Positions 7,708 to 29,086 of a stretch of DNA of 64,000 nucleotides are shown in pieces (position 1 is the stretch's first letter; each line of letters begins with the position of its first letter). Source of the stretch: Flavobacteriaceae bacterium F08102 (GTDB lineage Bacteria; Bacteroidota; Bacteroidia; Flavobacteriales; Flavobacteriaceae); contig JALKAY010000004.1 in assembly GCA_023015935.1 (NCBI GenBank), forward strand, positions 496,001 to 560,000, given 5' to 3'. Made by a program: the position numbers and the translations under genes. A model generated the notes under the pieces. It saw nothing but the letters and a program-made list of their open reading frames with translations, had not been told where the DNA came from and ran no database searches.

Positions 7708-7750
7708 TGATGAATATCATATTACAAGCCATCCTATTGTAGTAATTTTA
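7708..7750 (+). promoter_or_regulatory. FNR/CRP-type class II promoter module 1 (USP gene at 7772)
   Basis: Palindrome TGAT-GAAT-ATCA at 7708-7719 (with outer A and T), 23 bases, then TAATTTTA at 7743-7750. With the first T of the box at -12, the site centre is -41.5 and the start is near 7755, a 17-base leader to the ATG. Confidence 0.8.
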
Positions 7751-7771
7751 GCCTGTTATAACTAATCATCT

Positions 7772-8608
7772 ATGAAATCTATTCTCTTATTAACCGACTT
7801 TTCAGATACTTCAAAAAATGCTATTGAATATGCCATACAGCTTTTTAAAGATAAAAAATGTATGTATTATGTGTTGTATGTCCAAGATTCTACAAGACCA
7901 ATCACTACGGTTGATTTATTGACCGATTCATCGACGAGCATTTATAAGTCACTCATTAAAAAGCATCAAAAAAAATTACAAGAGTTTGTTTCTACCCTTC
8001 GGGGCACCTATGAGTCGCCCAATGCCATATTTAAACCAAAAGTGGACTACGATTCACTGGTAGATGCTGTTAAACAGCTTATTAAATCAAAAAATATTGA
8101 TGTAGTCGTTATGGGCTCCAATGGGGCAACTGGTGCCAAAGAAGTTGTCTTTGGCAGCAATACCTTAAATGTTATTAGAAAAGTTGAATGTACCACACTT
8201 ATTATTCCTGAAAATTATTCCTATACAACTCCAAAAACGATTCTGTTACCCTTAGATCCTGTAGATACCTTAAGTGGAAATGATTTTGCCGAGTTTTTAG
8301 CCTTTGTCAAACAGCATAATTTACACGTACATGTAGTTCGGGTCTACAATGAAGAGACCGATGATGAACAAGCTCAAAGAGACCAAGCTCACTTAGAACG
8401 CCATCTTTCTTCTTCAACATATGTATATCATACGCTCGACAATCTATCCATAGATCGTGCCGTAAGTACCTATATCCAATTACACCCCATCGATATGATG
8501 AGTCTCTTTGTACAGAAAGAAAACCTTCTTGAACGATTGTTTTTGGGATCAGCAACCACAAAAATAAATAAACAGAATCAAATCCCTTTATTCATCATAC
8601 ATTCATAA
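7772..8608 (+). CDS. universal stress protein, two tandem UspA domains
   Basis: Cytoplasmic stress protein of the UspA family, made of two tandem domains (about 1-150 and 150-278). The first opens KSILLLTDFSDTSKNAIEYA and keeps the nucleotide-binding pattern G-2x-G-9x-G-S in GSNGATGAKEVVFGSNT; the second is degenerate and lacks it. A family member of the ATP-binding type is expected, though binding is not shown here. Module 1 lies 53 bases upstream. It converges with the P-type ATPase, 16 bases away, and is the one USP gene here on the plus strand. Confidence 0.93.
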   Translation: MKSILLLTDFSDTSKNAIEYAIQLFKDKKCMYYVLYVQDSTRPITTVDLLTDSSTSIYKSLIKKHQKKLQEFVSTLRGTYESPNAIFKPKVDYDSLVDAVKQLIKSKNIDVVVMGSNGATGAKEVVFGSNTLNVIRKVECTTLIIPENYSYTTPKTILLPLDPVDTLSGNDFAEFLAFVKQHNLHVHVVRVYNEETDDEQAQRDQAHLERHLSSSTYVYHTLDNLSIDRAVSTYIQLHPIDMMSLFVQKENLLERLFLGSATTKINKQNQIPLFIIHS

Positions 8609-8624
8609 ACGCATCAACCTGTAG

Positions 8625-11138
8625 TTAACAATTATGACTATTTCTTCTTTTTCTCCATTTGACCATTTCATACCATAAAACGGAGACCATTCCAACCAGT
8701 ATAGACACACCCAATTGTGTGAAATTTAACACTTCAAACTTTAAAAACCTTGAAAGTGGTTCAATAAAAATAGAAAGTGCGGTTAACGTTGCCGTAATGA
8801 CAATCATTATACCCACTAAATTATTCTTAAATTTCAACGTAGTCAACAACGAATAATAAAAAGAACGATTCACTAAGGTAAGGGTTATATTTGCCATAAT
8901 CATCGTAGTAAAAACCATGGTTCTCGTCAAATTTTCATTATATCCCAAATTCACTGCATAGTGATAAATCAAAAGGATTCCTAAGGTAATCACCAATCCT
9001 TGCATTACACTCGTATACAGCTCTTTAAAATTAAAAAAGGTACGCGTAAATGGTCGTGGTTTTTGAGACATCGTGTTTTTCTCCATGGGTTCATTCTCAT
9101 AAATAATTGAGCAGGTTGGTCCCATAATTAATTCTAACAAAATTACATGGACCGGAGAAAAAATCGCTGGATAAACCCACCCTAATGCCAAGGGAATAAA
9201 CACCGTAAGTATAATGGGAATATGAATAGATATGATGTATTGAATCGCTTTCTTTAGATTAGTATATATTCGACGTCCCATCGCTACTGCATCGACCATT
9301 TTTGAGAGATCGTCTTCTAAGAGGATCATAGAAGCCGCTTGTTTGGCAATTTCAGTTCCTCTTTTCCCCATAGCAACCCCTATATGAGCCGATTTTAAAG
9401 CCGGGGCATCATTGATTCCATCTCCTGTCATTGCTACAATTTCATGCTGCTCCTTTAAGGCATTAACAATTTTCAATTTGGCGGCAGGAAACATGCGCGT
9501 AAATAAAAAATTATCAATCGATGCCACTCGTAATTCTTCGTTGGATAACTTCATTAATTCACTACCGGTAATGTGTTTCTCTGCATGTTTAAACTGAATT
9601 TGTTTTGCAATTGCCAGTGAGGTTGTTTCATTATCACCTGTAATTATTTTCACGTTAATCCCAGCGGTATCAAATGCGTCAAAAACTTTTTGAATATTTT
9701 CTTTTGGAGGATCATAAAAAGCGACTATTCCTTTAAATTGAAAAGTAAACGCTTGCTGAGTCGCAGGATAATGATTCCCTGAAAAATCAGTCTCCCCTAC
9801 AGCTAACATACGATATCCATCAGCGCCCAAGGCTTCCATAATTTCTCCGATATGTTTTTTCTCTTCGTCCGCAAGTTGAGATACCTCCAAGATAGCTTCA
9901 GGAGCACCTTTTGCCGCAATAATGCGTTTGCCTTTTTTATTCTCAAACACATGAGTCATCATCGGCGGCTTACCACCCAGTGGATACTCGTGTACCATAG
10001 TGAAATTTGAACGTTCATCTTCTAATACAAATGCTGAATACGCATTGTGTAACGCTATTTCCATAGGATCAAAAGGGATGGGTTCACTCGCCCACATTGC
10101 CAGTTTAAGAAGCGCTAACTCGTCCTCATTAATGTCCTTGCCTTCGGTATCGAAAATACGATTCGATTTAGCCGCAAAGAGCTTAACAAGCTTCATTTCA
10201 TTCTTTGTTATCGTACCGGTCTTATCTACACAAATCGTTGTTGCACTCCCTAGGGTTTCCACAGTTTTCATTTGTTTCACTATGATTCCCATTTTCATCA
10301 ATCGCCAGGTTCCTAGGGCCATAAATGTGGTAAATGCAACGGGGATTTCTTCAGGTAAAACACTCATCGCTAGCGTCAACGCTTTCAACAAGCTTTCTAA
10401 TACATCGTAGCTTCGCAAATAATTAAGTAGCCAAACTCCTAGAAATATAATACTTCCCGCAATGACCATCTTTTCAACAAAACTTCGAATTTGAATTTCG
10501 ATAGGCGTTTTTTCTTCTTTTATACCTTCAATACTTTTTCCTATTTCGCCAAGCTTCGTCTTCTCTCCTATTTGAGTAACTATGGCAATGGCTAAACCAC
10601 TTGCAACTGTTGTCCCTTGAAAAACAAAATTATCTTCCTTATCCTTGTCTTTATACACTGGAAGTGACTCCCCTGTCAGTAAGGATTCATTGACTGAAAA
10701 ATCATTAGAATGAATAATATAACCATCAGCTGGTATTGCATAACCTTCCTCTACCATCATGGCGTCTCCAATCACCATATCTTCAATAGGAATGGTAGTA
10801 ACCGTTCCATTGCGAATAACCGTACCCTTCGGTTTTGTGAGATCCTTTAGTTTATCAAGCGCATTTCGACTTCTTGAATCTTGATATAAAGAGATGGTTG
10901 ATACGAGTACAACGGCAATCGATAAAAACAAACCGTCTCCAGAATTACCTGTAATGAAATAAATAGAAGCAGTAATTAACAACAAAAGAACCATCGGTTC
11001 TTTAACTAAATTCTTTATTCCTTTGACAAACTCATTCTGTTTTTTATAATTGACACGATTAAAACCAAATTTTTCTCTTGCGTGTAAAACTTGCTCATCG
11101 GTAAGTCCGTCAATATTGACATTTTCTGTTGTAATCAT
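8625..11138 (-). CDS. P-type cation-transporting ATPase (Ca2+-ATPase-like)
   Basis: Membrane pump of the P-type ATPase family, 837 residues. Seen: N-terminal cation-ATPase region (LTDEQVLHAREKFGFN), the actuator loop NESLLTGES, the phosphorylation site CVDKTGTIT, the nucleotide-binding domain KGAPEAIL, and the hinge MTGDGINDAPALKSAHIGVAMG. TM4 carries LPEEIPVAF, as in bacterial type II (Ca2+-like) pumps rather than the CPC or SPC of heavy-metal pumps, so divalent cation export is the best guess. No N-terminal metal-binding CxxC. It follows the lipoprotein gene by 67 bases and probably shares its promoter. Confidence 0.93.
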   Translation of the reverse strand: MITTENVNIDGLTDEQVLHAREKFGFNRVNYKKQNEFVKGIKNLVKEPMVLLLLITASIYFITGNSGDGLFLSIAVVLVSTISLYQDSRSRNALDKLKDLTKPKGTVIRNGTVTTIPIEDMVIGDAMMVEEGYAIPADGYIIHSNDFSVNESLLTGESLPVYKDKDKEDNFVFQGTTVASGLAIAIVTQIGEKTKLGEIGKSIEGIKEEKTPIEIQIRSFVEKMVIAGSIIFLGVWLLNYLRSYDVLESLLKALTLAMSVLPEEIPVAFTTFMALGTWRLMKMGIIVKQMKTVETLGSATTICVDKTGTITKNEMKLVKLFAAKSNRIFDTEGKDINEDELALLKLAMWASEPIPFDPMEIALHNAYSAFVLEDERSNFTMVHEYPLGGKPPMMTHVFENKKGKRIIAAKGAPEAILEVSQLADEEKKHIGEIMEALGADGYRMLAVGETDFSGNHYPATQQAFTFQFKGIVAFYDPPKENIQKVFDAFDTAGINVKIITGDNETTSLAIAKQIQFKHAEKHITGSELMKLSNEELRVASIDNFLFTRMFPAAKLKIVNALKEQHEIVAMTGDGINDAPALKSAHIGVAMGKRGTEIAKQAASMILLEDDLSKMVDAVAMGRRIYTNLKKAIQYIISIHIPIILTVFIPLALGWVYPAIFSPVHVILLELIMGPTCSIIYENEPMEKNTMSQKPRPFTRTFFNFKELYTSVMQGLVITLGILLIYHYAVNLGYNENLTRTMVFTTMIMANITLTLVNRSFYYSLLTTLKFKNNLVGIMIVITATLTALSIFIEPLSRFLKFEVLNFTQLGVSILVGMVSVLWYEMVKWRKRRNSHNC

Positions 11139-11984: not shown

Positions 11985-12434
11985 TCAAAGTTTGTCTAGT
12001 AAACGTTTTTGCTTATCTTTTTTTAGCACCTCTTGGATAAGCCCAAAAAGGGCCGATTTAAGCGATTTAACCTCAGCTAAAAAGTCACGAACTAAAACAA
12101 TGAGACGCATATGCTCTTTTTTGTAATTTTCTTCCTCAGATAACTGATCAACTTGATCTACCATAATTTTAAGTTCATTTCTATGTTTAGTGATAATCTT
12201 AACAAGGTCTTTGTTGCTCTTTTCGGTTTGGCTAATCTGACCAACAAGCAATTTACTTTTTGAAAACCATTGGGTATCTACAAGCTGAAATGTAAAAGAA
12301 TTAATAAGCTCTTCAAAGAATTGAAGTTCATCGTGTGTAAATGCTAACTCCGAAAGCCAATCCATCGTATTGTGATGCATTTCATCTGCACTCAACCATT
12401 TGACATACTTGATCGTTTGAGTTCTTGTTTTCAT
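11985..12434 (-). CDS. helical protein of unknown function, FNR-module controlled
   Basis: 149 residues, almost wholly helical, charged, with coiled-coil-like stretches (about 65-100 and 108-149), no signal peptide and no membrane segment. It is not recognised. It has its own 43-bp module (12484-12526) with a 45-base leader. Placed between the P-type ATPase/lipoprotein pair and the nuclease-USP operon, it is likely part of the same stress response. Confidence 0.8.
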   Translation of the reverse strand: MKTRTQTIKYVKWLSADEMHHNTMDWLSELAFTHDELQFFEELINSFTFQLVDTQWFSKSKLLVGQISQTEKSNKDLVKIITKHRNELKIMVDQVDQLSEEENYKKEHMRLIVLVRDFLAEVKSLKSALFGLIQEVLKKDKQKRLLDKL

Positions 12435-12483: not shown

Positions 12484-12526
12484 TAAAGGTACTTGTTGCC
12501 TGTACTTTAAAAAATGATAATAATCA
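12484..12526 (-). promoter_or_regulatory. FNR/CRP-type class II promoter module 2 (gene 11985-12434)
   Basis: Palindrome TGAT-AATA-ATCA at 12515-12526 and, on the minus strand, box TACCTTTA at 12491-12484, with the same centre-to-box spacing of 29.5 bases as the other modules. Predicted start near 12479. It begins just 3' of the nuclease operon, whose stop is at 12539. Confidence 0.75.
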
Positions 12527-12538: not shown

Positions 12539-13912
12539 TTAACATTGTATTTTTTCAACTGATAAGAGGGTGGGCACTTCAACATCCCAATGAAATGTAT
12601 CTTTTACTTTCACCCTAAATGCATTTAATGCAGATGATTCTCCATGAATTAAATATACCTTTTCAGGGGTGTTTTGAATAGCACTCATCCAGTAGATAAG
12701 CCCCGATTGATCTGCATGTGCAGATAAACTGTCAAGATGTTTAATTTTAGCTTTAACAGGATGATATTTCCCAAAAAATTTAAGTTCATGAGCACCATCT
12801 AACAGTTGTCTACCACGCGTTCCTTCAGCCTGATACCCAACCAATAAAACCGTAGTAGAAGGTTCGTCAATTAATTGTTGTAAATAGGTCAAAACCCTTC
12901 CTCCTGTTACCATTCCACTTCCGGCAATAATTATCTTTGACCGTTTATCATCAATGGTTTCCCAGGTTTCTTTATACGATTGTACGATAGTAATATGTTT
13001 AATCATCGCACGAAAATCTTCTATCGAACGCTTATGCCATTCAGGAAAATGATAAAACAGTTCTAATACCTTATCTCCCATAGGGCTATCCATAAAAATA
13101 GGAATATTGGGGATTTTTTTATTTTTGAAAAGCTTCCATAAAAGGTACATTAACATCTGAATACGCTCAACCGCAAAACTCGGAATAATAAGATTTCCTT
13201 TTTCGCGAAGGGTCGTTAAAATGAGGTCGGTCAAAATTTCTTCAACATCTTCGACTGGGTGTAATTTATTACCATATGTACTTTCCATAAAAAGATAATC
13301 AGCCTTTTCAGGTCGTTTCGGATCATAGAGCAAGTAATCATTAATTCTACCCACATCACCTGAAAACACAAATCGTTTGGTATATATCTCTAATTCAATA
13401 AAAGTTGCTCCAAGAATATGTCCGTTATACATAAAACGGTATGCTATATTTTCAGCTAAATAAACCCAAACATCCACTTTTGCTTCTTGAAATAATTTAC
13501 ACGTTTTTTCTACATCGCTAGTTGTGTAAAATGGTAAGGCTGGATGATGTTTAGAATAATTTTCACGATTGGCTTTTTTAGCATCTTCTTCCTGAATTTT
13601 CGCACTGTCTTTTAAGATAATTTCAGCAATAGCCAAAGTTGGTTTTGTCCCTATAATTTTCCCTTTAAACCCTTGTTTTATCAAACGTGGTAGATACCCT
13701 ACATGATCTAAATGTCCATGGGTAAGTAAAACCACTTCAATAGAACTTACGTCTATCGGTAGATCCAGCCAATTGAGCTCTCGAAGTTCCTTTACACCTT
13801 GAAACATTCCGCAGTCTACAAGAATATTCATCTCTCCTGTTTCAAGTAAAAATTTAGACCCCGTGACACTATTTGCAGCTCCAAAGAAATTGACCTTCAC
13901 TTCATTCTTCAT
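12539..13912 (-). CDS. metallo-beta-lactamase/beta-CASP nuclease family protein
   Basis: Zinc hydrolase of the beta-CASP branch, most of whose members (CPSF-73-like, RNase J-like) cut RNA. Seen in order: motif 1 region, the zinc motif H65-G-H67-L-D69-H70, HILGATFIEL and FSGDVGRIND with further ligands, the beta-CASP motif A in FMESTYGNKLHP, SGMVTGGR (motif B area) and HLDSLSAHADQSG with the motif C histidine. Length 457 is usual for bacterial CPSF-like proteins; no KH domain is attached. It is the last gene of a six-gene minus-strand run starting at 17914. RNA cleavage is inferred from the family. Confidence 0.9.
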   Translation of the reverse strand: MKNEVKVNFFGAANSVTGSKFLLETGEMNILVDCGMFQGVKELRELNWLDLPIDVSSIEVVLLTHGHLDHVGYLPRLIKQGFKGKIIGTKPTLAIAEIILKDSAKIQEEDAKKANRENYSKHHPALPFYTTSDVEKTCKLFQEAKVDVWVYLAENIAYRFMYNGHILGATFIELEIYTKRFVFSGDVGRINDYLLYDPKRPEKADYLFMESTYGNKLHPVEDVEEILTDLILTTLREKGNLIIPSFAVERIQMLMYLLWKLFKNKKIPNIPIFMDSPMGDKVLELFYHFPEWHKRSIEDFRAMIKHITIVQSYKETWETIDDKRSKIIIAGSGMVTGGRVLTYLQQLIDEPSTTVLLVGYQAEGTRGRQLLDGAHELKFFGKYHPVKAKIKHLDSLSAHADQSGLIYWMSAIQNTPEKVYLIHGESSALNAFRVKVKDTFHWDVEVPTLLSVEKIQC

Positions 13913-15276: not shown

Positions 15277-16131
15277 TCAATTCCTTAAATCGTGCATTAC
15301 GAGAATAGGCACACTAGAGTTATAACTTATACCCTTAACCAAAGGTTGCGTAAGAATACTTCCAAACAAGCTGTGTTTACTGTTTATAAATGCAACCATA
15401 TCACTTTCTCTACTCTCAACAAAACAATTGATTGCCGCGGGCACAGGCATTTGACTTAATGTGTGAAACGAGTACTCCACTTCTTCAAAACACTCCATCA
15501 AAAGTTCTTTCCCATTTAATTGTTTCGGACTCAATGTACGGTCATTGGCTATATGTAAAATCCGAATCGATGCCCTACAATTTTTAGCAATATCAATGAG
15601 GTAGCTCAATTCTCTCTTTTTAAAATGTGTTTCATAACTCGTAGGAAAAACAATTTCAGAAGGTGGGTGAAGTTTTGCTAATTGAGGGACCACCACCACT
15701 GGGCAATTTCTTGCTTTTTCCATAACATCAATCGCCGTACTACCAAACAATATACTTTTCGCATTTGTTTTCCCTCGCGTCCCCATAACAATCATATCAA
15801 TATCTTTTTCCTCAACGACGCTTTTAATCACATCTAAAGGATCTCCAAAACGCGAAATAATTTGAAAACTGTGATGTGTATTTTGATAATTCCCAACCGA
15901 ATAATCATCTAACAATTTTGCAAGACCTAATTCCGATTTCGACTTTTCCTCATCATTCCAATGTTCTTTTGACTTTTTCTTCATAAAACTACCTCCTCCC
16001 TCCGAAGCTTTAGCATACACATTTAAAAAATAAAACACACATTCTTTATTCTTAAAGAGTTGTAATGCATAATTTATGGCCTGGGTAGCATTTAGAGAAA
16101 AGTCTGTAGGTAATACAATTTTATATTTCAT
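15277..16131 (-). CDS. universal stress protein, two tandem UspA domains
   Basis: 284 residues, two UspA domains. Domain 1 opens KYKIVLPTDFSLNATQAINYA and keeps G-2x-G-9x-G-S in GTRGKTNAKSILFGST. Domain 2 (from about 155) is divergent. A short Gly/Ser-Lys-rich insert (SEGGGSFMKKKSKEHWNDEE, about 44-63) marks it off from its neighbours. Third gene of the minus-strand run from 17914, followed after 71 bases by the eRF1-like gene. Confidence 0.92.
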   Translation of the reverse strand: MKYKIVLPTDFSLNATQAINYALQLFKNKECVFYFLNVYAKASEGGGSFMKKKSKEHWNDEEKSKSELGLAKLLDDYSVGNYQNTHHSFQIISRFGDPLDVIKSVVEEKDIDMIVMGTRGKTNAKSILFGSTAIDVMEKARNCPVVVVPQLAKLHPPSEIVFPTSYETHFKKRELSYLIDIAKNCRASIRILHIANDRTLSPKQLNGKELLMECFEEVEYSFHTLSQMPVPAAINCFVESRESDMVAFINSKHSLFGSILTQPLVKGISYNSSVPILVMHDLRN

Positions 16132-16192: not shown

Positions 16193-17041
16193 CTACCTTT
16201 TCTTACCCGAGAGAACCAAAAAAGGAATATTCAAATGGAATCCTATTTTATTAATTGAATTTTTAAAAAATAGATTTTCAAAAAATGAATGCTTATTATT
16301 GATCATTGCCAACAGGTTGATTTTATATCTAATTTGAAATTTATTAATCGCTTCTGGAACTTCCATACTTTCAACATCGTGAAACAAATAAGCAACACCT
16401 TTAAAATATGATTTCAAGGCAGACTCATTTTGTTGTTGAAATTCGGTTAAATCATATCCAGTAGACACATGTAAGGCATTGACTCTTGAATTATGAGCAA
16501 CCGCAATTTCTCTCAATAAATTCAAGCGTGTTTCATTATAATTAACCGACAAATCAGTTGGAAAGAGGATTTCTTTGGGAGCTTCATAGGTAAACCCTGA
16601 CGGGATAGCCAAAATTGGACAGTGAATATTGTTAAATGCATGAACCGTATTACTTCCGAACAAAACCTCTTTTGCACCGGTAGCTCCTTTAGTCCCCATT
16701 ATAATAAGGTCAATATCTTCTGATTCCACCACTTCTTTTATCGCAAAAACCAATGTGTTAAATTTAGAAACTAGTTCAAATTCATGTGTTTTAAGCGATG
16801 GAAATTTTTTCAAAATCGAATTGTGAAGCTTTTCTAAATTTTCAGTTGAAATCTTTTTTGCAGCATCATTTAACGCATATTGAGCCGTAGTTTCAAGTCC
16901 GAAGCCCACATTGTAAATCACCGAGGTATACGCATTTAGTAAATAAAATTTACAAGGCTCTTTTTTATAGAGTTGAATTGCATATTGAATGGCATTCCAT
17001 GAATTTTCAGAAAAATCAGTAGGTAACAAAATATGTTTCAT
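16193..17041 (-). CDS. universal stress protein, two tandem UspA domains
   Basis: 282 residues, two UspA domains. Domain 1 has KHILLPTDFSENSWNAIQYA and the nucleotide motif GTKGATGAKEVLFGSNT; domain 2 opens KEILFPTDLSVNYNE but lacks the second glycine loop. It starts three bases after the stop of the upstream USP gene, so they are surely one transcript. The N-terminus is very close to that of the USP at 18168, which suggests recent local duplication. Confidence 0.93.
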   Translation of the reverse strand: MKHILLPTDFSENSWNAIQYAIQLYKKEPCKFYLLNAYTSVIYNVGFGLETTAQYALNDAAKKISTENLEKLHNSILKKFPSLKTHEFELVSKFNTLVFAIKEVVESEDIDLIIMGTKGATGAKEVLFGSNTVHAFNNIHCPILAIPSGFTYEAPKEILFPTDLSVNYNETRLNLLREIAVAHNSRVNALHVSTGYDLTEFQQQNESALKSYFKGVAYLFHDVESMEVPEAINKFQIRYKINLLAMINNKHSFFENLFFKNSINKIGFHLNIPFLVLSGKKR

Positions 17042-17044
17042 CGT

Positions 17045-17914
17045 TTACAAGATTTTAATTTTAGGTATTGTACGTGTTGCATTTTGCAGTGCCAATAGCG
17101 GTATTTTAAGGTCAACACTCACCGTATCAAGTGTAGAAGAAAATAACATATCTTCTAAAAATGAATGCTGTGTATTAACCATAACCAAAAGATCTATGGC
17201 GTTATTTTTAATATATGTTGTAATTGACTTCGCTATCTGCCCGTCACTTGCTCTATAAACATTCACTTCACAACCATCTAACCCTTTTTTAATAATTTCC
17301 AAATTGTCTTCTTGCCACAAGGTTAGCTTGGCTCTTTTTGATACGTATAACACATCAATCACACTTTGATTTGAATTAGCCAACAAATGTAGCAGTGCTA
17401 ACTCTCGATGTTGATAAGCATACAGGTAATCTGTTGGAAACAAAATATGTTTTATAGGTAATTTTGGATGAGTAGATGGGACCGCTAAAACAGGACATTT
17501 TACATATTTTAAAACTTGGAAGGTGTTACTTCCAAAAACAATATGACGTTCGTTTGATTTTCCCTTAGTACCCATGACAATGAGATCTATATTTTTTCCC
17601 TCCGCAATAAGATTAGCCTCTTCAATTAAGGTGTTATAAGCCGAAATTGTATGAAAACGAAAGTTTGGATTTGAAGCATTCGATTCAACTTGTATCCTCA
17701 GTTTTTCAAGATTGCTTAACGACTCATTTCTGACTTGGTCAAGCACATCTTCAAAAACAGCTCGTGACACCAATTCATCATGATCATAGAATTCATTTTG
17801 ATATGCATGTAATAAATAGAATTCTACCTTTTGCGATTTAAAAAGCTCCAAGGCATACGCTATAGCATTTTTTGAGTTTTGTGAAAAATCGGTGGGGAGA
17901 AGAATGGAAATCAT
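17045..17914 (-). CDS. universal stress protein, two tandem UspA domains; first gene of the USP-nuclease operon
   Basis: 289 residues. Domain 1 opens SILLPTDFSQNSKNAIAYA and has GTKGKSNERHIVFGSNT; domain 2 begins KHILFPTDYLYAYQHRE and is degenerate. The gene heads a same-strand run 17914 to 12539 with gaps of 3, 61, 71, 39 and 21 bases: USP, USP, USP, eRF1-like, ATP-cone nuclease, beta-CASP nuclease. Module 3 drives it, with a 21-base leader. Confidence 0.93.
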   Translation of the reverse strand: MISILLPTDFSQNSKNAIAYALELFKSQKVEFYLLHAYQNEFYDHDELVSRAVFEDVLDQVRNESLSNLEKLRIQVESNASNPNFRFHTISAYNTLIEEANLIAEGKNIDLIVMGTKGKSNERHIVFGSNTFQVLKYVKCPVLAVPSTHPKLPIKHILFPTDYLYAYQHRELALLHLLANSNQSVIDVLYVSKRAKLTLWQEDNLEIIKKGLDGCEVNVYRASDGQIAKSITTYIKNNAIDLLVMVNTQHSFLEDMLFSSTLDTVSVDLKIPLLALQNATRTIPKIKIL

Positions 17915-19032: not shown

Positions 19033-19075
19033 CAAATGTAAATGCTATCCTTCGATCAATAAATGATATTTGTCA
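19033..19075 (-). promoter_or_regulatory. FNR/CRP-type class II promoter module 4 (USP gene at 18168)
   Basis: Palindrome TGAT-ATTT-GTCA at 19064-19075 (flanks extend it to AAATGA/TCATTT) and minus-strand box TACATTTG at 19040-19033, a perfect -7 consensus at the standard 29.5-base spacing. Predicted start near 19028. This is one of the best copies. Confidence 0.85.
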
Positions 19076-19216: not shown

Positions 19217-20272
19217 TTAATAGATTTCTTTCAGTTTTTGAAGGTCTAGTATTCTTATATTTCGCCCTTCTATGGCAATAATCCCTTCTTTTTTAAAACT
19301 CGAAATTGTTCTAATTAAGGTTTCTGTTGCAATTCCAGCAACACTGGCCAAATCGCTTCGTGATATTCGAATAGGATCTTCGGGCTTACGGTTTAATTTT
19401 TCAGCAAATTTTAAGATCGTATTGGCTGTTTTCTTGTTCACTGAACTATATGCCATTTGCAACAACTGATCTTTTATTCCCTTGAGGTCATCTGTTAATA
19501 ATTGAATAAGTGCTAAGGTCACTTTGTGGTTCTTATCTAAAACATCTTTTAATTGATTTTTTGAAATCCCTACTAATTCGACTGGTTTTATCGCAGTAGC
19601 TGTTTCTAGATAAGGTATATTTTGAATAAAGGAAGTATATCCAAATAAATCATCTTCTTTGTACAAAGCAGTTGTTAATTCTTTTCCTTGTTCATCAAAT
19701 TTAAAACACTTTACCAAACCACTGTGTATCAAGAAGATATAGTTTGAATGTTGACCTTCTTTATAGATTACCTCACCCTGTGAATATGTAAAGGGTTCAC
19801 CATGATCATCAAAAAAATTTTTGAGATCATTAAGTGTTCTAATTGTATCTTCAGTTTCAGCCGTTACATTCCCATTGTTTAATCTGCTCTCTTTTAAAAT
19901 GGCTGTTTTAGCCAATCGACTTTCAATGGCACTGATTAATTCATTTTCATTAAAAGGTTTCGTAATGTAATCGTCTGCACCTAAATCCATCCCCTTTCTC
20001 ACATCTTGTCTTTCAGTCTTTGCAGATAAAAAGATAAATGGAATATACTTGGTGTTCTCATTCTTGGCCAATGCTTCTATCACGCCATACCCATCTAATT
20101 CGGGCATCATAATATCACAAACCACAATATCAGGAAGATAATGAAGTGCTTTTTCCACCCCAATTTTTCCGTTTGCTGCTGTAATTACATTATAGTTTGA
20201 GAGTTCCAATAACTCAGCCGTATTCTCTCTCAAAACCGCATCGTCTTCTATCAATAAAACTTGTCTTTTCAT
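19217..20272 (-). CDS. response regulator: receiver domain fused to Crp/Fnr DNA-binding module
   Basis: 351 residues. Residues 1-122 form a CheY-like receiver with acidic pair D10/D11, phosphoacceptor D53 (VVCDIMMPELDG), S83 and K105 (TKPF). Residues about 150-265 form a cyclic-nucleotide-binding-like beta barrel (YSQGEVIYKEGQHSNYIFLI) without the cAMP-binding RTA-type motif and without Fnr iron-sulfur cysteines. Residues 280-351 form the winged helix, with recognition helix ATETLIRTISSF. E317 and R321 align with FNR E209 and R213, which read the TGA core; FNR S212 is replaced by I320. Its ATG overlaps the kinase stop by 4 bases. It is the prime candidate for binding the nine modules. Confidence 0.93.
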   Translation of the reverse strand: MKRQVLLIEDDAVLRENTAELLELSNYNVITAANGKIGVEKALHYLPDIVVCDIMMPELDGYGVIEALAKNENTKYIPFIFLSAKTERQDVRKGMDLGADDYITKPFNENELISAIESRLAKTAILKESRLNNGNVTAETEDTIRTLNDLKNFFDDHGEPFTYSQGEVIYKEGQHSNYIFLIHSGLVKCFKFDEQGKELTTALYKEDDLFGYTSFIQNIPYLETATAIKPVELVGISKNQLKDVLDKNHKVTLALIQLLTDDLKGIKDQLLQMAYSSVNKKTANTILKFAEKLNRKPEDPIRISRSDLASVAGIATETLIRTISSFKKEGIIAIEGRNIRILDLQKLKEIY

Positions 20273-22149
20273 TTTCCTTTATTTGGAATGGTTAATATAA
20301 AGGTAGATCCACTATTTTCAACACTTTCAAAGGTAATTGTACCTCCTAAGTTTTCAATATGTGATTTTACGATGTTTAATCCAATACCCGTTCCTTGCGT
20401 CGTAAGTGCATTTTCCGCTCTAAAATAACGATTAAAAATATTCTTCTGATCCTTTTTAGGAATTCCAATACCAGAATCTTTAATGCGGAAAGTCGTTTGA
20501 TGTGCATTGTGGTTAATTCCAATATCAATTATGGTGTTTTCTGAGGAATATTTTATCGCATTGTGCACTAAATTCGACAAAGCCAATTCTAAGGTTTTCT
20601 CATCTTGAATTAACGTAATCTCATCTATCTCTTCTGGATACTTGATCTGTTGCCCTTCTTTTAACAGCATGTTGGCATTGTAAATCACCTCGTTCAGTAC
20701 TTTACTCAATTTAAAAGGCGTAAACTTATAATTTATTTTCCCCGTCTCTAATTTTTCAATAGATAAAAAATCATTGAGAATATTGTTGAGATAATGAACT
20801 TTATCAGTAATTGTTTTAATGTGTTTATCTCGTTTATCTTGCTGATCAGCTGACGTGTATTTACTTAACAACATGGTAGACGTTAAAATCCCGCTTAAGG
20901 GCGTCTTAAACTCATGAGAAACTAGGGATAAAAACTTTGTCTTAAGCTCATTGAGTTCTTTTTCATTTTCCAGTGCTTTTTGGAGTTGTTTTGTTCTCAA
21001 GGCAACTGTTTCCTCCAGCTTTTTAGTATAGTTTTTTTGTTCAGTAATATCTAGTACAATAGCCACATAAACATCGCGATCTCCTAAAGTAGATCTTTCC
21101 ATGTTTACATAAACTGGATATAAGGTACCATCTTTTCGTTGATGCCTTGTCTCAAACTCCATTTTACTAACGCGATTTTCAGCTAAAGGCGCTAGTAACT
21201 CATTAAATTTTTCTACGGTATAATCTGGTTTTATATCCACAGGGGTTTTCTCTTTGAGTTCCTCTAAGGTATACCCTAAATTTTTCAATGCGCCAAAATT
21301 GACATTGATAAATTTTAGCGTTATTAAATCAAAAACAAAGATTTCATTTAGAGAATCATTAAATATTTTGGAAAGATAGTTCCTCTCTTGCTCTGCCTGT
21401 TTACGTTGGGTAATATCATTTTGGATACCTATATAATGTGTTAACTTACCGTGTTTATCTTTAATTGGAGTTACATATAAATCGTTCCAAAATAGCGTTC
21501 CATCTTTTTTATAGTTTCGCAAAACAATCTGGCAACTTTCTCCTTTCTTTATTGCCTCACTCATCTTAGCAATACCTTCTTGGTCTCTATCATCAGCCTG
21601 CAAAAAACGACAATTGTTACCCAAAATTTCATCTGCCTCATATCCTGTTAATGCTTGAAATGCAGGGTTAAAATAAATTATAGGATTGTCTTTTTGCGTT
21701 GCATCACTAATCACAATTCCATTACCGGCCGATTGCAATGCCTCACTTCTCAATGTGAGGTTTTTCTCGTTTTCTTTACGCTCGGTAATATCGATAACTA
21801 AGGCCATAACATAAGTCTTGCCATATACCGTAAAGGGATTTAAACCCACCTCAACAGGGAATTGTACCCCATCCTTTCGCATTCCAAATAAATCGCGCCC
21901 ATGCCCCATTTTTCGCTGTTCGCTTTTCTTGTAAAACGATTCAAAATATCCACTGTGATGGGTGTGATACTCTGAAGGAATAAGCGTATTCAAAGGCTTC
22001 CCGTTTAACTCTTGAGGTGCATAGCCAAACATGTCATCTGTAGAAGAATTGGTTGACACAATTTTCTGTTCATCATTGACAATTATTATTCCTTCCGATA
22101 CCGCATCGGAAAGAATTTTCAAAATATCATTATTGTCTCTAAAAATCAT
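20269..22149 (-). CDS. multi-PAS sensor histidine kinase with LOV flavin domain and FixL-like PAS
   Basis: 626 residues, soluble, no membrane segment. PAS1 (about 8-124) has H65 and R85 at the spacing of the FixL heme ligand and oxygen-gating arginine (THHSGY, GHGRD), so heme binding is possible but unproven. PAS2 (about 135-250) is a canonical LOV domain: GNNCRFLQ with adduct-forming C180, flavin contacts N212 (RNYKKDG) and N222 (FWND), and Q243 (IGIQND). PAS3 (about 258-372) and a coiled coil (375-400) follow. HisKA has H412 in VSHEFKTPLS; HATPase has N530, DSGIGIP and GTGIGLNIVK. It is read first, then the Crp-type regulator with ATGA overlap. I infer blue-light and possibly gas or redox sensing. 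Confidence 0.95.
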   Translation of the reverse strand: MIFRDNNDILKILSDAVSEGIIIVNDEQKIVSTNSSTDDMFGYAPQELNGKPLNTLIPSEYHTHHSGYFESFYKKSEQRKMGHGRDLFGMRKDGVQFPVEVGLNPFTVYGKTYVMALVIDITERKENEKNLTLRSEALQSAGNGIVISDATQKDNPIIYFNPAFQALTGYEADEILGNNCRFLQADDRDQEGIAKMSEAIKKGESCQIVLRNYKKDGTLFWNDLYVTPIKDKHGKLTHYIGIQNDITQRKQAEQERNYLSKIFNDSLNEIFVFDLITLKFINVNFGALKNLGYTLEELKEKTPVDIKPDYTVEKFNELLAPLAENRVSKMEFETRHQRKDGTLYPVYVNMERSTLGDRDVYVAIVLDITEQKNYTKKLEETVALRTKQLQKALENEKELNELKTKFLSLVSHEFKTPLSGILTSTMLLSKYTSADQQDKRDKHIKTITDKVHYLNNILNDFLSIEKLETGKINYKFTPFKLSKVLNEVIYNANMLLKEGQQIKYPEEIDEITLIQDEKTLELALSNLVHNAIKYSSENTIIDIGINHNAHQTTFRIKDSGIGIPKKDQKNIFNRYFRAENALTTQGTGIGLNIVKSHIENLGGTITFESVENSGSTFILTIPNKGK

Positions 22150-22250: not shown

Positions 22251-22293
22251 TGATAATTATCATTTTAAGATTTGCCAACATCCCCTAACTTCG
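22251..22293 (+). promoter_or_regulatory. FNR/CRP-type class II promoter module 5 (22314-23412 operon)
   Basis: Palindrome TGAT-AATT-ATCA at 22251-22262 (perfect, extends to ATGAT...ATCAT) and box TAACTTCG at 22286-22293, one mismatch to TAnnTTTG. Predicted start near 22298, leader 16 bases. It sits between the kinase gene (opposite strand) and the thioredoxin operon. Confidence 0.8.
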
Positions 22294-22313: not shown

Positions 22314-22724
22314 ATGGAAGCTAAAAAAAAATTAACCCTTACGTTTTACCAAAAACTCGGTGCATTATTTTATGCATTTGCAGCTATTGATAATTCAATT
22401 AGGGAAGAAGAAATAAAAAAACTCAAAGAATTTGTTAAAAAAAAGTGGCTCACCATTGATGAGCTTGACGATGCTTTTGGTACGGATGCTGCGTATCAAA
22501 TAGAAATCGTTTTTGACTGGCTATCACAGCAAGAACACAATGACATTCACGCATATTTCGACGAATTTGTAGCCTATAAAAACGAACAAAAACACTTTTT
22601 TACTCGACCCGTAAAAAAATTGATTTTAGAAACAGCAAGTGCAATTTCCGAAAGCTTCTCGGGTAAAAACAAATCGGAATTAATGCTTTTAGCAAAATTA
22701 GCGATTGAATTAAAAAAAGAATAA
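22314..22724 (+). CDS. helical protein of unknown function, TerB-like in appearance
   Basis: 136 residues from the ATG at 22314; the longer frame would need a TTG at 22272 that lies before the promoter box. The protein is predicted to be all helical: YQKLGALFYAFAAIDNSIRE, then a second acidic-basic pattern. It resembles TerB-type proteins in length and in its first helix pair, but I do not claim the family. First of three genes, 3 bases before DUF302. Confidence 0.75.
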   Translation: MEAKKKLTLTFYQKLGALFYAFAAIDNSIREEEIKKLKEFVKKKWLTIDELDDAFGTDAAYQIEIVFDWLSQQEHNDIHAYFDEFVAYKNEQKHFFTRPVKKLILETASAISESFSGKNKSELMLLAKLAIELKKE

Positions 22725-22727: not shown

Positions 22728-23126
22728 ATGAATTATTATTTTAACACAACAACGAAAGGAACTTTTGAAGAAATCATAGCAAAAGTTACTGATTTACTCA
22801 AACAGGAGGGATTTGGTGTACTCACAAAAATTGACATTCAACAAACCCTAAAAGCCAAATTAGACGTATCATTTTCTAAGTACACTATTCTTGGAGCTTG
22901 CAATCCTCAATTCGCATATAAGGCACTTACGGCAGAAAACAAAGTGGGTACAATGCTTCCTTGTAATGTCATCGTTCAAGAGCTTGAACCAAATAGCATT
23001 GAAGTAGCGGCTGTTAATCCACTACAATCCATGCAGGCCATTGAAAATCCCGCTTTAGAATCGATTGCCAATGAAGTTAGTGAAAAATTAAAAAAAGTGA
23101 TTAAACATTTAGCAAATGAAAAGTAA
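22728..23126 (+). CDS. DUF302 family protein
   Basis: 132 residues, single DUF302 domain. Seen are the strand-turn pattern GTFEEIIAKVTDLLKQEGFGVL and the conserved centre YTILGACNPQFAYKAL. The biochemical role of the family is not known; members are often linked to stress or redox genes. It sits between the helical protein and thioredoxin, overlapping the latter by 11 bases (ATGAAAAGTAA), so translation is probably coupled. Confidence 0.9.
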   Translation: MNYYFNTTTKGTFEEIIAKVTDLLKQEGFGVLTKIDIQQTLKAKLDVSFSKYTILGACNPQFAYKALTAENKVGTMLPCNVIVQELEPNSIEVAAVNPLQSMQAIENPALESIANEVSEKLKKVIKHLANEK

Positions 23127-23412
23127 TTTTAATTCAATAATCCAAGGAACCACTCCTGTTTTGGTTGATTTTTATGCAGATTGGTGTGGGCCTTGTAAAA
23201 TGCTTGCTCCAATATTAAAAGAGGTAAAAGCTGAACTTAAAGACACTGTTAAAATCATTAAAATTGACGTTGATAAAAACCCCAACTTGGCATCTCAATT
23301 TCAAGTTAGAGGGGTTCCTACACTCTTATTATTTAAAGATGGTAAACAACGTTGGCGACAATCAGGAGTGCTTCAAAAATCAGAACTTATTTCAATCATT
23401 AAGAACCACTAA
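23116..23412 (+). CDS. thioredoxin
   Basis: 98 residues, standard thioredoxin fold with active site W-C24-G-P-C27-K and the cis-proline in GVPTLLLF. It reduces protein disulfides in the cytoplasm; no signal peptide is present. Last gene of the module 5 operon. With the peroxiredoxin under module 9 this puts thiol redox repair in the regulon. It is slightly shorter than E. coli TrxA (about 108). Confidence 0.95.
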   Translation: MKSNFNSIIQGTTPVLVDFYADWCGPCKMLAPILKEVKAELKDTVKIIKIDVDKNPNLASQFQVRGVPTLLLFKDGKQRWRQSGVLQKSELISIIKNH

Positions 23413-23655: not shown

Positions 23656-23698
23656 TGATACTTGTCATAAACTAGGGGCACAAATCAACGTATTTTTA
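23656..23698 (+). promoter_or_regulatory. FNR/CRP-type class II promoter module 6 (CoA-transferase gene)
   Basis: Palindrome TGAT-ACTT-GTCA at 23656-23667 and box TATTTTTA at 23691-23698, spacing 29.5 bases. Predicted start near 23703 and a 52-base leader. The dyad TGACAT/ATGTCA (23700-23705, 23712-23717) overlaps the start point and may be a further control element. Confidence 0.75.
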
Positions 23699-23754: not shown

Positions 23755-25044
23755 ATGAATAAAAAGGGGGTAACCATACTATCAAAAGATCAAATCATTT
23801 CACACATTTCATCTGGAGACAGAATATTTATACAAGGAGCTGCCATGACACCCAATGCATTGATTGATGCATTGTGTCTTCACTGTGACAATCTAAAGGA
23901 TGTAGAAATTATTCAACTACACACAGAAGGAACCGCTGAATACACGCAATATCCCTGTAACCAATCCTTTAAGGTAAATAGTTGTTTTGTTGGAAGCAAC
24001 GTTCGAGGAGCTGTAAATTCAGTAAATGGCGATTATATTCCCATTTTTTTAAGTGAAGTCCACTTATTATTTAAACGCAAAATATTAGCGATTGATGTAG
24101 CTTTTATTCAGGTTTCCCCACCAGATAACCACGGTTTCTGCTCCTTAGGAACTTCTGTAGATGTAACACTTTCTGCTATAGAAGCGGCTAAATTGGTCAT
24201 CGCTCAGATAAATCCGAATGTCCCTAGAACCCACGGAGATGGAATTATTCATATATCTAAAATAGATTATGCTATTGACGTTGATGTCCCCATTCATACA
24301 TCTAGCATAGAATCCCCTTCGGATATTGAAGAAAAAATTGGCAAACATGTCGCTTCGCTTGTAGAAGATGGCGCCACTTTACAAATGGGTATCGGAAATA
24401 TCCCTAATGCCGTTTTAAAGAATTTATTTCATCACAAACGGCTAGGTATCCATACAGAAATGTTCTCTGATGGAATTCTCCCCTTAGTTGAAAATGGAAT
24501 TATTACCGGAGAAGAAAAAGTTGTCAAAAAGGGAAAAATCGTTACTTGTTTTGCTATGGGAACTAAGAAACTCTACGACTTTGTCGACGATAACCCCATC
24601 GTTCACTTTAAAGAAGCATCCTATACCAACGACACGAAACTCATTCGTAAAAATCCAAAAGTTACCGCTATTAACAGTGCAATAGAAATCGATTTAACAG
24701 GTCAAGTATGTGCTGACACCATCGGTAAATATCAATACTCAGGGGTTGGCGGACAAATGGATTTTATTCGTGGTGCATCGCTATCAGAGGGAGGAAAAGC
24801 CATTATCGCGATTCCTTCTTTAACTACCAAAGGGTATTCTAAAATTGTTCCTTTTCTTAAAGAAGGAGCTGCCGTTACTACCACGAGAGCCCACGTTCAT
24901 TTTGTTGTTACAGAGTATGGGGTTGTTGATCTTTTTGGTAAAAACTTAAAACAACGCGCAAAAGCATTAATTCAAATTGCTCACCCGAGTGTACGCGAAT
25001 CACTTTCAAAGGAAGTTTTTGATCGGTTTCAAATGGTTCTTTAA
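23755..25044 (+). CDS. acetyl-CoA hydrolase/transferase family protein (4-hydroxybutyrate CoA-transferase-like)
   Basis: 429 residues. Acyl-CoA hydrolase or CoA-transferase of the family containing 4-hydroxybutyrate and butyryl-CoA:acetate CoA-transferases, using acetate and acyl-CoA. Seen are the N-terminal Rossmann-like domain with RIFIQGAAMTPNALIDAL, and the C-terminal domain with LQMGIGNIPNAV, the family signature GVGGQMDFIRGASLSEGG and VTEYGVVDLFGK. The substrate cannot be told from sequence. Controlled by module 6 and followed 15 bases later by an MscS channel gene. An anaerobic or low-oxygen acetate role would fit its control, but that is inference. Confidence 0.9.
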   Translation: MNKKGVTILSKDQIISHISSGDRIFIQGAAMTPNALIDALCLHCDNLKDVEIIQLHTEGTAEYTQYPCNQSFKVNSCFVGSNVRGAVNSVNGDYIPIFLSEVHLLFKRKILAIDVAFIQVSPPDNHGFCSLGTSVDVTLSAIEAAKLVIAQINPNVPRTHGDGIIHISKIDYAIDVDVPIHTSSIESPSDIEEKIGKHVASLVEDGATLQMGIGNIPNAVLKNLFHHKRLGIHTEMFSDGILPLVENGIITGEEKVVKKGKIVTCFAMGTKKLYDFVDDNPIVHFKEASYTNDTKLIRKNPKVTAINSAIEIDLTGQVCADTIGKYQYSGVGGQMDFIRGASLSEGGKAIIAIPSLTTKGYSKIVPFLKEGAAVTTTRAHVHFVVTEYGVVDLFGKNLKQRAKALIQIAHPSVRESLSKEVFDRFQMVL

Positions 25045-26005: not shown

Positions 26006-26221
26006 TTACTTTTTGTTTTTGTGAACTTGACAGGTATTTATTCCAAATAACGTGTATAGTGGACAAAAACTAATAAAGCTCGTAAGAATAAAGACTCCTG
26101 CCAATACTAAAAGTACTATACCCAACGTTCCTGAAATTATATTTAATGCATACAGAATTACGACAATTGCCGCAATTATGAATCTACTTATTCGATCTGT
26201 TTTACCCATATTTGTTTTCAT
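26006..26221 (-). CDS. DUF2892 (YgaP-like) small membrane protein
   Basis: 71 residues with two adjacent transmembrane segments (about 12-30 and 33-50) and a short tail ending in CPLYTLFGINT, the hallmark of DUF2892. The opening MKTNMGKTDRISRFIIA is typical. In YgaP this domain anchors a rhodanese; here it stands alone. Its own module 7 lies upstream with a 14-base leader. Confidence 0.9.
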   Translation of the reverse strand: MKTNMGKTDRISRFIIAAIVVILYALNIISGTLGIVLLVLAGVFILTSFISFCPLYTLFGINTCQVHKNKK

Positions 26222-26239: not shown

Positions 26240-26282
26240 CAAAAATATACGCAAATGTCGAGATTAGAAATGATAAATATCA
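26240..26282 (-). promoter_or_regulatory. FNR/CRP-type class II promoter module 7 (DUF2892 gene)
   Basis: Palindrome TGAT-AAAT-ATCA at 26271-26282 (extends to ATGAT...ATCAT) and minus-strand box TATTTTTG at 26247-26240, a perfect consensus. Predicted start near 26235. Confidence 0.85.
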
Positions 26283-27407: not shown

Positions 27408-28190
27408 TTAGCGTTTAAAAAATGCTTTTACTTTTGGATCCTTTGAAACTGATAAGGCTTCAAAAGTACCTTCGGCATAGTTCGTCCCATCAATTAATAA
27501 GATCATTCGGTCTGCAATTACGCGGGCACAATCCACATCGTGGGTAATGATTATTGAAGAGGTTTTATATTTTTTTTGAATGTCTTGCATCAACTGAATA
27601 ATTTCTTTTGAAGTAATGGGGTCCAAACCACTGGTAGGCTCATCATAAAGGATGATTTTCGGTTGTAAAATCAAGGTCCTTGCCAAGGCAACTCTTCGTT
27701 TCATACCCCCCGACAGCGCTGACGGCATAAGATCTAAGGTATGAGCTAAGCCTACATTCTCTAACGCTTCAAGGACTCGCTGATCAACATCCATCGAAGT
27801 ATCAAATAAATGTGAATGTCGACGTAAAGGGAATTCCAAATTCTCACGTACCGTCATCGAATCATATAATGCACTTCCTTGAAATAAAAAACCAATATCT
27901 CCGCGTAAAATATCCAACGAAGATTGATCTAAACTAGTAATATCCTTATGCATTACGGATATTACCCCACTGTCAAATTCCATAAGTCCCACAAGACATT
28001 TTATCATAACTGATTTTCCAGAACCTGACTTCCCCATAATGACAAGGTTTTCTCCTTTGAACAATTTTAAATTAAAATTTTTAAGCACAACATGGTCGCC
28101 AAAACTTTTATTTAAATTTCTAATTTCAAGGACTAATTCTCTCGATTCAGGCGTTTCTTTCTGTAATTGATTTGTAGATAATTCATTCAT
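27408..28190 (-). CDS. MlaF-type ABC transporter ATP-binding protein
   Basis: 260 residues, ABC ATPase. Walker A GKSGSGKS (about 54-61), Q-loop in FLFQGSALYDSM, signature LSGGMKRR, Walker B ILYDEPTSGLDP and H-loop ITHD. The LSGGM signature and the neighbouring MlaE/MlaD genes point to lipid transport. Its ATG overlaps the permease stop (ATGA). Confidence 0.95.
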   Translation of the reverse strand: MNELSTNQLQKETPESRELVLEIRNLNKSFGDHVVLKNFNLKLFKGENLVIMGKSGSGKSVMIKCLVGLMEFDSGVISVMHKDITSLDQSSLDILRGDIGFLFQGSALYDSMTVRENLEFPLRRHSHLFDTSMDVDQRVLEALENVGLAHTLDLMPSALSGGMKRRVALARTLILQPKIILYDEPTSGLDPITSKEIIQLMQDIQKKYKTSSIIITHDVDCARVIADRMILLIDGTNYAEGTFEALSVSKDPKVKAFFKR

Positions 28191-28969
28191 AATTCATAAA
28201 ATATGTCTGTTACAAAAACAGCAACAAAGTCAATAACAAACAACAATAGAGAAGTGAAAACAACAGCTGAATTTGCCGCTCTCCCCACCCCTGCAGTTCC
28301 TTTTTCACAGTAATATCCTTTAAAACATCCTACAAGTCCAATGGCTAATCCAAAAAATATAGACTTTATCGTAGCGGGTAATAGATCTCCAAATTCTAAA
28401 GACGCAAAAACTTGACTAAAAAATAACTCAAATGAAACTGCTCCTTTTGCATTTTCAACAAGAAATGATCCAAATAATCCAATTGCATCGCCAACAATTA
28501 CTAATAACGGAATCATTAAAGTCGATGCTAACACCCGCGTAACCACGAGGTATTTAAATGGATTCGTACCTGAAACTTCCATGGCATCGATTTGTTCTGT
28601 AACCCGCATAGAGCCCAATTCAGCTCCAATACCAGACCCTATTCGTCCTGCACAGACCAACGCCGTAATCATAGGGCCAATTTCTCTAATTAAGGAAATA
28701 CCCACCATCGATGGCATCCAAGAAACTGCCCCAAACTCTAATAAGGTAGGTCTTGTTTGTAAAGTCAAAACAAGTCCAATAATAAACCCTGTAATCCCTA
28801 CTAAAACAAGAGATCGATTCCCCATATAATAGCATTGGCGTAAAAACTCTTTAAATTCAAAGGGTCTTTTCACTGATTCTTTAAAAAAACGAGCCGTAAA
28901 ATAAGAAAGGTCTCCAATTTCAATTAAAAATGATTGTATGGGAATTGTTAAACTTCGAATGGATGACAT
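28187..28969 (-). CDS. MlaE-type ABC transporter permease
   Basis: 260 residues from ATG 28969. Five or six membrane segments and the MlaE signature region with EIGPMITALVCAGRIGSGIGAELGSM, followed by EQIDAMEVSGTNPFKYLV. The longer frame starts with ATG at 29008, but that lies upstream of the predicted start (about 28985) of module 8, whose perfect box is at 28997-28990; from ATG 28969 the leader is 16 bases, as in the other modules. If the box is not used, 29008 remains possible. First gene of the operon with mlaF and mlaD. Confidence 0.88.
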   Translation of the reverse strand: MSSIRSLTIPIQSFLIEIGDLSYFTARFFKESVKRPFEFKEFLRQCYYMGNRSLVLVGITGFIIGLVLTLQTRPTLLEFGAVSWMPSMVGISLIREIGPMITALVCAGRIGSGIGAELGSMRVTEQIDAMEVSGTNPFKYLVVTRVLASTLMIPLLVIVGDAIGLFGSFLVENAKGAVSFELFFSQVFASLEFGDLLPATIKSIFFGLAIGLVGCFKGYYCEKGTAGVGRAANSAVVFTSLLLFVIDFVAVFVTDIFYEL

Positions 28970-28989
28970 CACAGAATCTCTTAGAATCC

Positions 28990-29032
28990 CAAATATATTG
29001 AAGAACATACGGATTTAAAATGATAAAAATCA
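28990..29032 (-). promoter_or_regulatory. FNR/CRP-type class II promoter module 8 (MlaEFD-like operon)
   Basis: Palindrome TGAT-AAAA-ATCA at 29021-29032 and minus-strand box TATATTTG at 28997-28990, a perfect -7 consensus at the standard spacing. Predicted start near 28985. The palindrome lies 11 bases from the one of module 9, which faces the other way. Confidence 0.85.
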
Positions 29033-29043
29033 TATCCTTAACA

Positions 29044-29086
29044 TGACCTAAGTCATTTTGATATCGTATTACTTCAATTACTTTTA
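29044..29086 (+). promoter_or_regulatory. FNR/CRP-type class II promoter module 9 (peroxiredoxin gene)
   Basis: Palindrome TGAC-CTAA-GTCA at 29044-29055 (ATGAC...GTCAT) and box TACTTTTA at 29079-29086, spacing 29.5 bases. Predicted start near 29091 and a leader of about 146 bases, much longer than for the other modules, with a hairpin at 29105-29129. The site pair 29026.5/29049.5 is 23 bp apart. Confidence 0.65.

Follow-up and report, generated by a model that had tools for sequence, protein, structure and literature searches.

What is the function of nine short, uniformly built modules that precede genes in the genome of Flavobacteriaceae bacterium F08102, and which protein reads them? The modules lie in a 64,000-nucleotide (nt) stretch of this genome (contig JALKAY010000004.1, positions 496,001 to 560,000; hereafter the window). 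Each is 43 base pairs (bp) long and consists of a palindrome, a 23-bp spacer and a promoter-like box; all nine were read directly from the sequence. With a probability of roughly 0.7, we interpret them as class II activator promoters whose main reader would be a response regulator encoded in the same cluster, in which a receiver domain is joined to a CRP-type DNA-binding part (receiver-CRP). Its partner would be a FixL-like histidine kinase, its cue low oxygen and its output a survival set of genes.

The layout of the modules is constant. An initial annotation had described them as identical, which is true of the layout (palindrome, 23-base spacer and box at all nine coordinates) but not of the sequences themselves, which differ. 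The TAnnTTT(G/A)-like box that it had proposed is present in every one: eight of the nine modules fit the pattern TGAYN4RTCA-N23-TANNTTT exactly, and the box of the module at 22251 deviates (TAACTTCG). This exact pattern, seen eight times in the window, was found on average 0.04 times and at most once in 300 dinucleotide shuffles, which bears out the earlier claim of a spacing far beyond chance. When relaxed to TGA-N6-TCA-Nn-TANNTT, the pattern gives nine matches at N23 and three or fewer at every other spacing from 8 to 40. There are 13 TGAYN4RTCA palindromes in the window: nine are intergenic, every one of them part of a module (as had also been claimed), and the remaining four (30939, 33947, 51926 and 54460) fall within open reading frames (ORFs). 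Chance, or the copying of promoter DNA, is a scarcely credible explanation: apart from four chance-like matches among the 29 in the whole genome (see below), we found nothing in its favour for this cluster, and besides the shuffles it has to contend with the diversity of the modules: 140 loci yield 553 distinct sequences, whose spacers vary past a T-rich start.

The distance from the palindrome centre to the first base of the box is 29.5 bp in all nine modules. In mapped promoters of Flavobacterium psychrophilum, according to excerpts of one study, the element TAnnTTTG lies at -12 to -5 (PMC9723704). If this register is carried over, the palindrome would be centred at -41.5, and the class II placement argued for in the initial annotation is supported. 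A CRP/FNR-type dimer would bind TGAYN4RTCA at this position and recruit the housekeeping polymerase at TAnnTTTR, and for the most part it would do the work of the -33 element. The module would then represent the class II activation layout on a Bacteroidetes TAnnTTTG promoter. All nine modules are upstream of a gene; with transcription starting 12 bases past the box T, seven genes have predicted leaders of 14-52 nt, and a peroxiredoxin gene has one of 146 nt.

The upstream regions of HU and tRNA-Met do contain TTG-N19-TATATTTG, as had been pointed out. The further proposal that the palindrome takes the place of the -33 element holds for the most part. The 553 distinct modules show enrichment of TTG-N20 (50 vs. 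13 expected from spacer composition) but not of TTG-N19 (5 vs. approximately 13 expected); the T-richness of the columns next to the half-site would by itself lead one to expect a similar or larger number of TTG-N20. A count of TTG-Nn-TANNTTTG over all loci has no peak at N19, but as coding sequence was left unmasked it speaks neither for nor against the proposal. Past the T that follows the palindrome the bases are T-rich, with G in the third place at 28%, perhaps as a remnant of the -33 element. Since activation is not proved by strand and position alone, the sites might instead repress, or mark a constitutive promoter class. We consider this very improbable: with the centre always at -41.5 and no enrichment of TTG-N19, the layout is that of class II activators, and repressor sites usually vary in position.

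The same module recurs throughout the 3.32-Mb genome, where the exact pattern is found 29 times and the reversed pattern, our control for genome counts, once. When the spacer is freed to 9-37, there are 106 matches vs. 27 for the reversed pattern, and N23 alone, one of 29 spacings, accounts for 29 of the 106. Of the exact modules, 8 are in the window, 10 in a second cluster (C44:317-344 kb) and 11 elsewhere. Eighteen lie no more than 15 kb from the two receiver-CRP response regulator genes of the genome, where 0.5 would be expected, this distance having been picked after the modules were seen. Among the eleven outlying modules, two are in the nos region, one precedes a fused cbb3 gene (at 275 bp) and four precede other genes (for a lysine-decarboxylase-like protein, a 128-residue ORF, nadA and an arsR-type gene). 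The last four are chance-like, two being within ORFs and two without a same-strand ORF inside 3.5 kb. The modules had been read as one local regulon; they do cluster round the likely regulator, but the occurrence of the same module at the second, paralogous cluster, at nos and cbb3 genes and across a large part of the family rules out a single private regulon, and the module seems to be read by two or more types of regulator. The pattern first described is thus real and strong, and the argument from its position right; the identity of the regulator and the scope of the regulon needed correction.

The second cluster (L010 and L011, G000:C44:310001-350000) has, in addition to its ten exact modules, an eleventh with the box TAATTTCG. 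It encodes its own receiver-CRP regulator and a PAS/GAF/LOV kinase of 1084 amino acids (aa), together with universal stress protein (Usp), Hsp20, a ferritin-family protein, HlyD/ABC/MacB export proteins and a patatin. In the nos region, divergent modules (L012:6985 and 6996) are located between an Rrf2-type gene and a fasciclin-domain gene, ahead of nosZ; the module before the fused cbb3 oxidase gene is at L013:4637.

Related genomes share the module as well. A survey of 199 genomes of the same family yielded 2948 modules vs. 233 reversed-pattern matches, with at least one module in 186 genomes; the response regulator (E 1e-40) is found in 86 and a stand-alone FNR homologue (1e-30) in 125 (117 without weak ones). 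Module numbers follow the presence of these regulators: as raw counts per genome, unadjusted for genome size, the means are 3.0 with neither regulator (n=45), 12.3 with FNR only (n=68), 16.9 with the response regulator only (n=37) and 27.6 with both (n=49), eight genomes whose best FNR match is 4e-43 or weaker being entered as FNR-minus. The reversed control is 1.0-1.3 per genome in all four groups.

The spacing is kept at individual loci. We compared 40 type A and 20 type B loci with a further 80 named loci. The type A and B loci were hand-picked, type A being the ones of higher identity, and together are 60 of 104 places at which the regulator was listed in genomes other than that of the window. 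The named loci, the best 80 of at least 578 confirmed stretches, lean to close relatives (Winogradskyella, Algibacter, Maribacter, Arenibacter, Aquimarina and other genera). Some named loci are from the same genomes as type A or B ones, and the 573 modules counted comprise 553 distinct ones. N23 is found 162 times in type A loci vs. 92 summed over 30 other spacings (approximately 3 each), 72 times in type B loci vs. 49 (1.6 each), and 339 times in the named loci vs. 199 at other spacings (mean 6.6), each named locus having at least one module. Nearly all modules are outside called ORFs (160/162 in type A, 71/72 in type B). Where a gene starts no more than 300 bp behind the module, this first gene encodes a Usp in 72 of 150 type A cases and in 7 of 65 type B cases.

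Sixty-six first genes have no match to proteins of the clusters. The ten of these that were examined encode a fused cbb3 oxidase, DnaJ, a rhodanese/metallo-beta-lactamase protein, a radical SAM protein with a weak HemN_C match, a YkuD protein, a PLD-like protein, PPDK, phosphate acetyltransferase, a DsbD-like protein and an outer membrane efflux protein. Targets such as the cbb3 oxidase and the nos region, along with phosphate acetyltransferase and PPDK, point to oxygen limitation. The cbb3 oxidase of F. psychrophilum is strongly induced under oxygen limitation, according to excerpts of the study cited above (PMC9723704).

The most likely local reader is a 351-aa response regulator (19217-20272, minus strand) with a receiver, a cyclic nucleotide monophosphate (cNMP)-binding-like domain and an HTH_Crp_2 domain (Pfam PF00072, PF00027 and PF13545, all above cut-off). 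In 13 aligned regulators, receiver residues D53 and K105 are invariant and S83 is Ser or Thr. The recognition helix ExxIR (E317, I320, R321) is invariant in all 13 and is common to the second-cluster paralogue and to the stand-alone FNR-like protein of the same genome. By its Pfam domains and conserved residues, the protein is both a member of the CRP/FNR superfamily and a response regulator. An AlphaFold model based on an alignment of only 13 sequences (mean predicted local distance difference test score 81.9) supports the predicted domain folds: the 50 best Foldseek matches are all CRP-superfamily structures. Superposition of the whole chain on CRP-family chains in the PDB is poor (template modelling scores 0.26-0.31 by query and 0.41-0.50 by target, root-mean-square deviation 14-18 among the best 50).

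The label "FNR/CRP-type" in the initial annotation suits the promoters, which are of the class II CRP/FNR type, but the likely local activator is a receiver-CRP response regulator and neither FNR nor CRP proper. The four [4Fe-4S] cysteine ligands of FNR are missing, there being one cysteine in the CRP part. In CRP, we take the Arg-Ser/Thr of the phosphate-binding cassette to be the cAMP-binding residues; the Arg-Thr of Mycobacterium tuberculosis CRP is replaced by Tyr-Leu in the alignment. With one cysteine and Tyr-Leu at the cAMP site, we do not expect the regulator to depend on an iron-sulfur cluster or on cAMP; it would be controlled by phosphorylation instead. Nor is it FixJ, a receiver with LuxR/GerE-type output: here the output is HTH_Crp_2, and there is no LuxR-type Pfam match. 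FixK has no receiver, and the local activator is fused to one. The locus points to a receiver-CRP type of response regulator, of which we found no description for Bacteroidetes among the titles and abstract beginnings listed in searches of an open-access library; a search with exact phrases gave no paper. A Flavobacteriales CRP/FNR homologue was tied loosely to MalR in 2021, and its targets were predicted with the Bacteroides MalR matrix, as stated in excerpts of that report (PMC8510549).

The probable source of the phosphoryl group is a 626-aa histidine kinase (20269-22149, minus strand) with FixL-like PAS, LOV, PAS, HisKA and HATPase domains. Its gene overlaps that of the response regulator by 4 bp in the same operon. 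In relatives, 138 loci have a complete regulator gene, and 134 of these have a kinase gene immediately upstream of it. The best PDB match of the first PAS domain is FixL (2e-14). The domain keeps H200 and R220, the proximal His and distal Arg of a FixL haem PAS. Among the 106 kinases used for residue counts (the pattern for response regulators matched 108 in 142 sources), the FixL-like His is kept in 32/34 of type A, the window included, and 59/61 of the named loci, and R220 in 27/34 and 49/61, respectively. The next domain matches sensory box/LOV proteins (best 1.9e-37), with phototropin and a chain named LOV domain among its PDB matches. It has the motifs GNNCRFLQ (the GxNCRFLQ cysteine motif), NYKKDG..FWN and IGIQ, which we take to provide the LOV cysteine and the flavin contacts. 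The FixL-like PAS domain would sense oxygen, probably by means of haem, and the LOV domain of this lineage would sense blue light by means of a flavin, low oxygen being the most likely main cue and light a possible modulator. The 1084-aa kinase of the second cluster has a similar first PAS domain without R220, plus a LOV-type domain.

It is unlikely that the kinase is chiefly a blue-light sensor and that the regulon of the cluster answers to light stress instead of oxygen. Both kinases of this genome do have LOV-type domains with the NCRFLQ cysteine motif, and Usp, the ferritin-family protein and peroxiredoxin would suit photo-oxidative stress. However, the FixL-like His, near-constant in type A and named kinases, is set against a LOV motif (NCRFL) found in only 7/40 type A, 8/19 type B and 10/75 named kinases. 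To account for the presence of LOV in the partner kinases, a FastTree phylogeny of 139 regulators requires 10-12 changes, and well-supported branches make 7 of these unavoidable; cbb3 and nos, moreover, are genes of oxygen limitation. A regulon governed by light alone is rejected. Across type A and named loci, the constant element of the kinase is thus the FixL-like part, and LOV is an optional input.

Several observations weigh against the receiver-CRP protein as main reader and oxygen as its cue. Genomes with FNR only carry modules too, so FNR could read the window sites, and three genomes with neither regulator hold 11-31 modules: G048 (31; 82% complete), G147 (18; 73% complete) and G138 (11; control 7). 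The kinase-regulator operon rarely has a module of its own, a histidine kinase or response regulator being the first gene in 3/150 type A and 7/65 type B cases. On the sensor side, conservation does not extend to FixL R206, DosP-type PAS domains reach nearly the score of FixL, and the FixL-like PAS subtype is a common one. Type B kinases keep the His in only 7/11 and R220 in 2/11, and 33 of the 40 type A kinases lack LOV. In the window's own genome, the 77 matches at spacings other than 23 also exceed the reversed control; this control thus understates the background, and the comparison between spacings is the safer one.

It is rather doubtful that the window modules are read chiefly by the stand-alone FNR-like protein (C44:237142-237825), with the receiver-CRP protein secondary or acting on other sites. 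The two proteins share the ExxIR helix, the FNR-like gene is close to cbb3 oxidase genes with a module, and the 68 genomes with an FNR homologue and no response regulator average 12.3 modules. The 37 genomes with the response regulator and no close FNR homologue nevertheless average 16.9, vs. 3.0 where both are missing, and the modules are concentrated round the two response regulator genes. From the sequences, the module probably has stand-alone FNR-type proteins as further readers, alongside the receiver-CRP regulator that we favour. In the window's genome the two genes are approximately 278 kb apart on one contig. In eight relatives (G061, G071, G110, G121, G134, G153, G159 and G173), a stand-alone FNR gene is located approximately 1 kb from the response regulator gene, which suggests a linked pair or a cascade.

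The sites of the two paralogues differ in detail. Type A sites favour TGAT...ATCA, and those of the 11 type B loci (of 20) taken as the true paralogue type lean to TGAC...GTCA. The T:C ratio of half-sites is 232:88 in type A vs. 48:56 in type B (P 1.5e-6, a figure inflated by related sequences), and within the genome of the window it is 14:4 for window-type sites vs. 7:13 for the second cluster (P 0.011). A T follows the palindrome in 95% of the 553 distinct modules and the base before it is A or C in 151/160 type A modules, which makes the site asymmetric. At its eighth base the box has either A or G, with counts of 98 and 57, respectively, in type A and of 20 and 32 in the 11 type B loci, giving TAnnTTTR.

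Known systems offer parallels. Like FixLJ-FixK of rhizobia and Burkholderia, this system has a kinase with a FixL-resembling PAS domain, a CRP/FNR-type activator, a related palindromic box and cbb3 (fixNOQP) among its targets (for the FixK2 box, see the excerpted description in PMC9104804). Unlike in FixLJ-FixK, receiver and CRP-type activator are one protein, the LuxR-type output of FixJ is missing and some kinases add LOV. As a tentative possibility, we suggest that an oxygen regulon of the Flavobacteriaceae is governed by a shortened Fix pathway: the FixL-like kinase, in some cases carrying LOV, would phosphorylate a receiver-CRP fusion that unites FixJ and FixK and acts directly at -41.5, light and oxygen would be integrated where LOV is present, and the paralogues would have diverged (TGAT.. 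vs. TGAC..) so that each cluster has a partly insulated regulon. A functional LOV branch would bring light and oxygen together in a single switch. Known LOV histidine kinases also have a LOV-type domain with an adduct cysteine; unlike in these, LOV is here an option within a FixL-like kinase partnered with a CRP-type response regulator. The FNR, DNR and NnrR regulons share the TGAY-N4-RTCA core, the class II position and cbb3 and nos genes behind the modules, and differ in that here there is a receiver in front, one cysteine in the CRP part and the helix ExxIR. The recognition helix of Escherichia coli FNR is ExxSR.

The Usp-rich content recalls the low-oxygen survival sets of the Burkholderia lxa locus and the mycobacterial DosR regulon. 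These differ in phylum, and the cluster described here carries its own two-component pair with CRP-type output. In excerpts of two reports, the lxa low-oxygen locus includes heat-shock and metallo-beta-lactamase proteins, and FixLJ-FixK is discussed as regulator of this Usp-rich locus (PMC6127331, PMC9104464). By analogy, the system would play the same low-oxygen part as in Burkholderia through a single chain that combines receiver and activator. The fixed 43-bp module provides a direct sequence route to regulons in a large family.

The predicted output in the window is a survival set of universal stress proteins, thiol enzymes, lipid transport and acetyl-CoA turnover. On the plus strand, the module at 7708-7750 (palindrome 7708-7719, box 7743-7750) precedes a Usp gene (7772-8608, Pfam PF00582). 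Two minus-strand modules also precede Usp genes: the one at 17940-17982 is followed by a run of three (17045-17914, 16193-17041 and 15277-16131) and the one at 19033-19075 by a Usp gene at 18168-19013. The plus-strand module with the weaker box (22251-22293) precedes an ORF with its ATG at 22314 (orf150, 22314-22724), a DUF302 protein gene (22728-23126) and a thioredoxin gene (23116-23412). The next plus-strand module (23656-23698) precedes a gene for an acetyl-CoA hydrolase/transferase family protein (23755-25044).

Two modules are back to back. One (29044-29086, plus strand) serves the peroxiredoxin gene (AhpC-TSA/1-Cys Prx, 29237-29959). The other (28990-29032, minus strand) fits the MlaE permease gene (28187-29008, minus strand), first of an MlaE-ABC-MlaD run ending at 26417, only if the called start is shifted to a downstream ATG, the true start probably being downstream of 28985; with this later start, the earlier statement that all modules are at gene starts is correct. 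The minus-strand module at 26240-26282 at first seemed to have no target, its 71-aa YgaP-like transmembrane protein (26006-26221, minus strand; Pfam PF11127) having been hidden by an 80-aa size cut. The remaining module (12484-12526, minus strand) precedes a gene for a 149-aa protein of unknown function (11985-12434, minus strand). Also in the cluster is a metallo-beta-lactamase/beta-CASP protein with an RMMBL domain by Pfam (12539-13912, minus strand), which has a homologue in 21/40 type A loci.

The proteins encoded at 22314-22724 and 11985-12434 have no NCBIfam or Pfam match (for Pfam, the former in a longer reading). Homologues of the two are present in 23/40 and 20/40 type A loci, respectively, and are encoded by the first gene behind 17 and 5 modules of these 40 loci.

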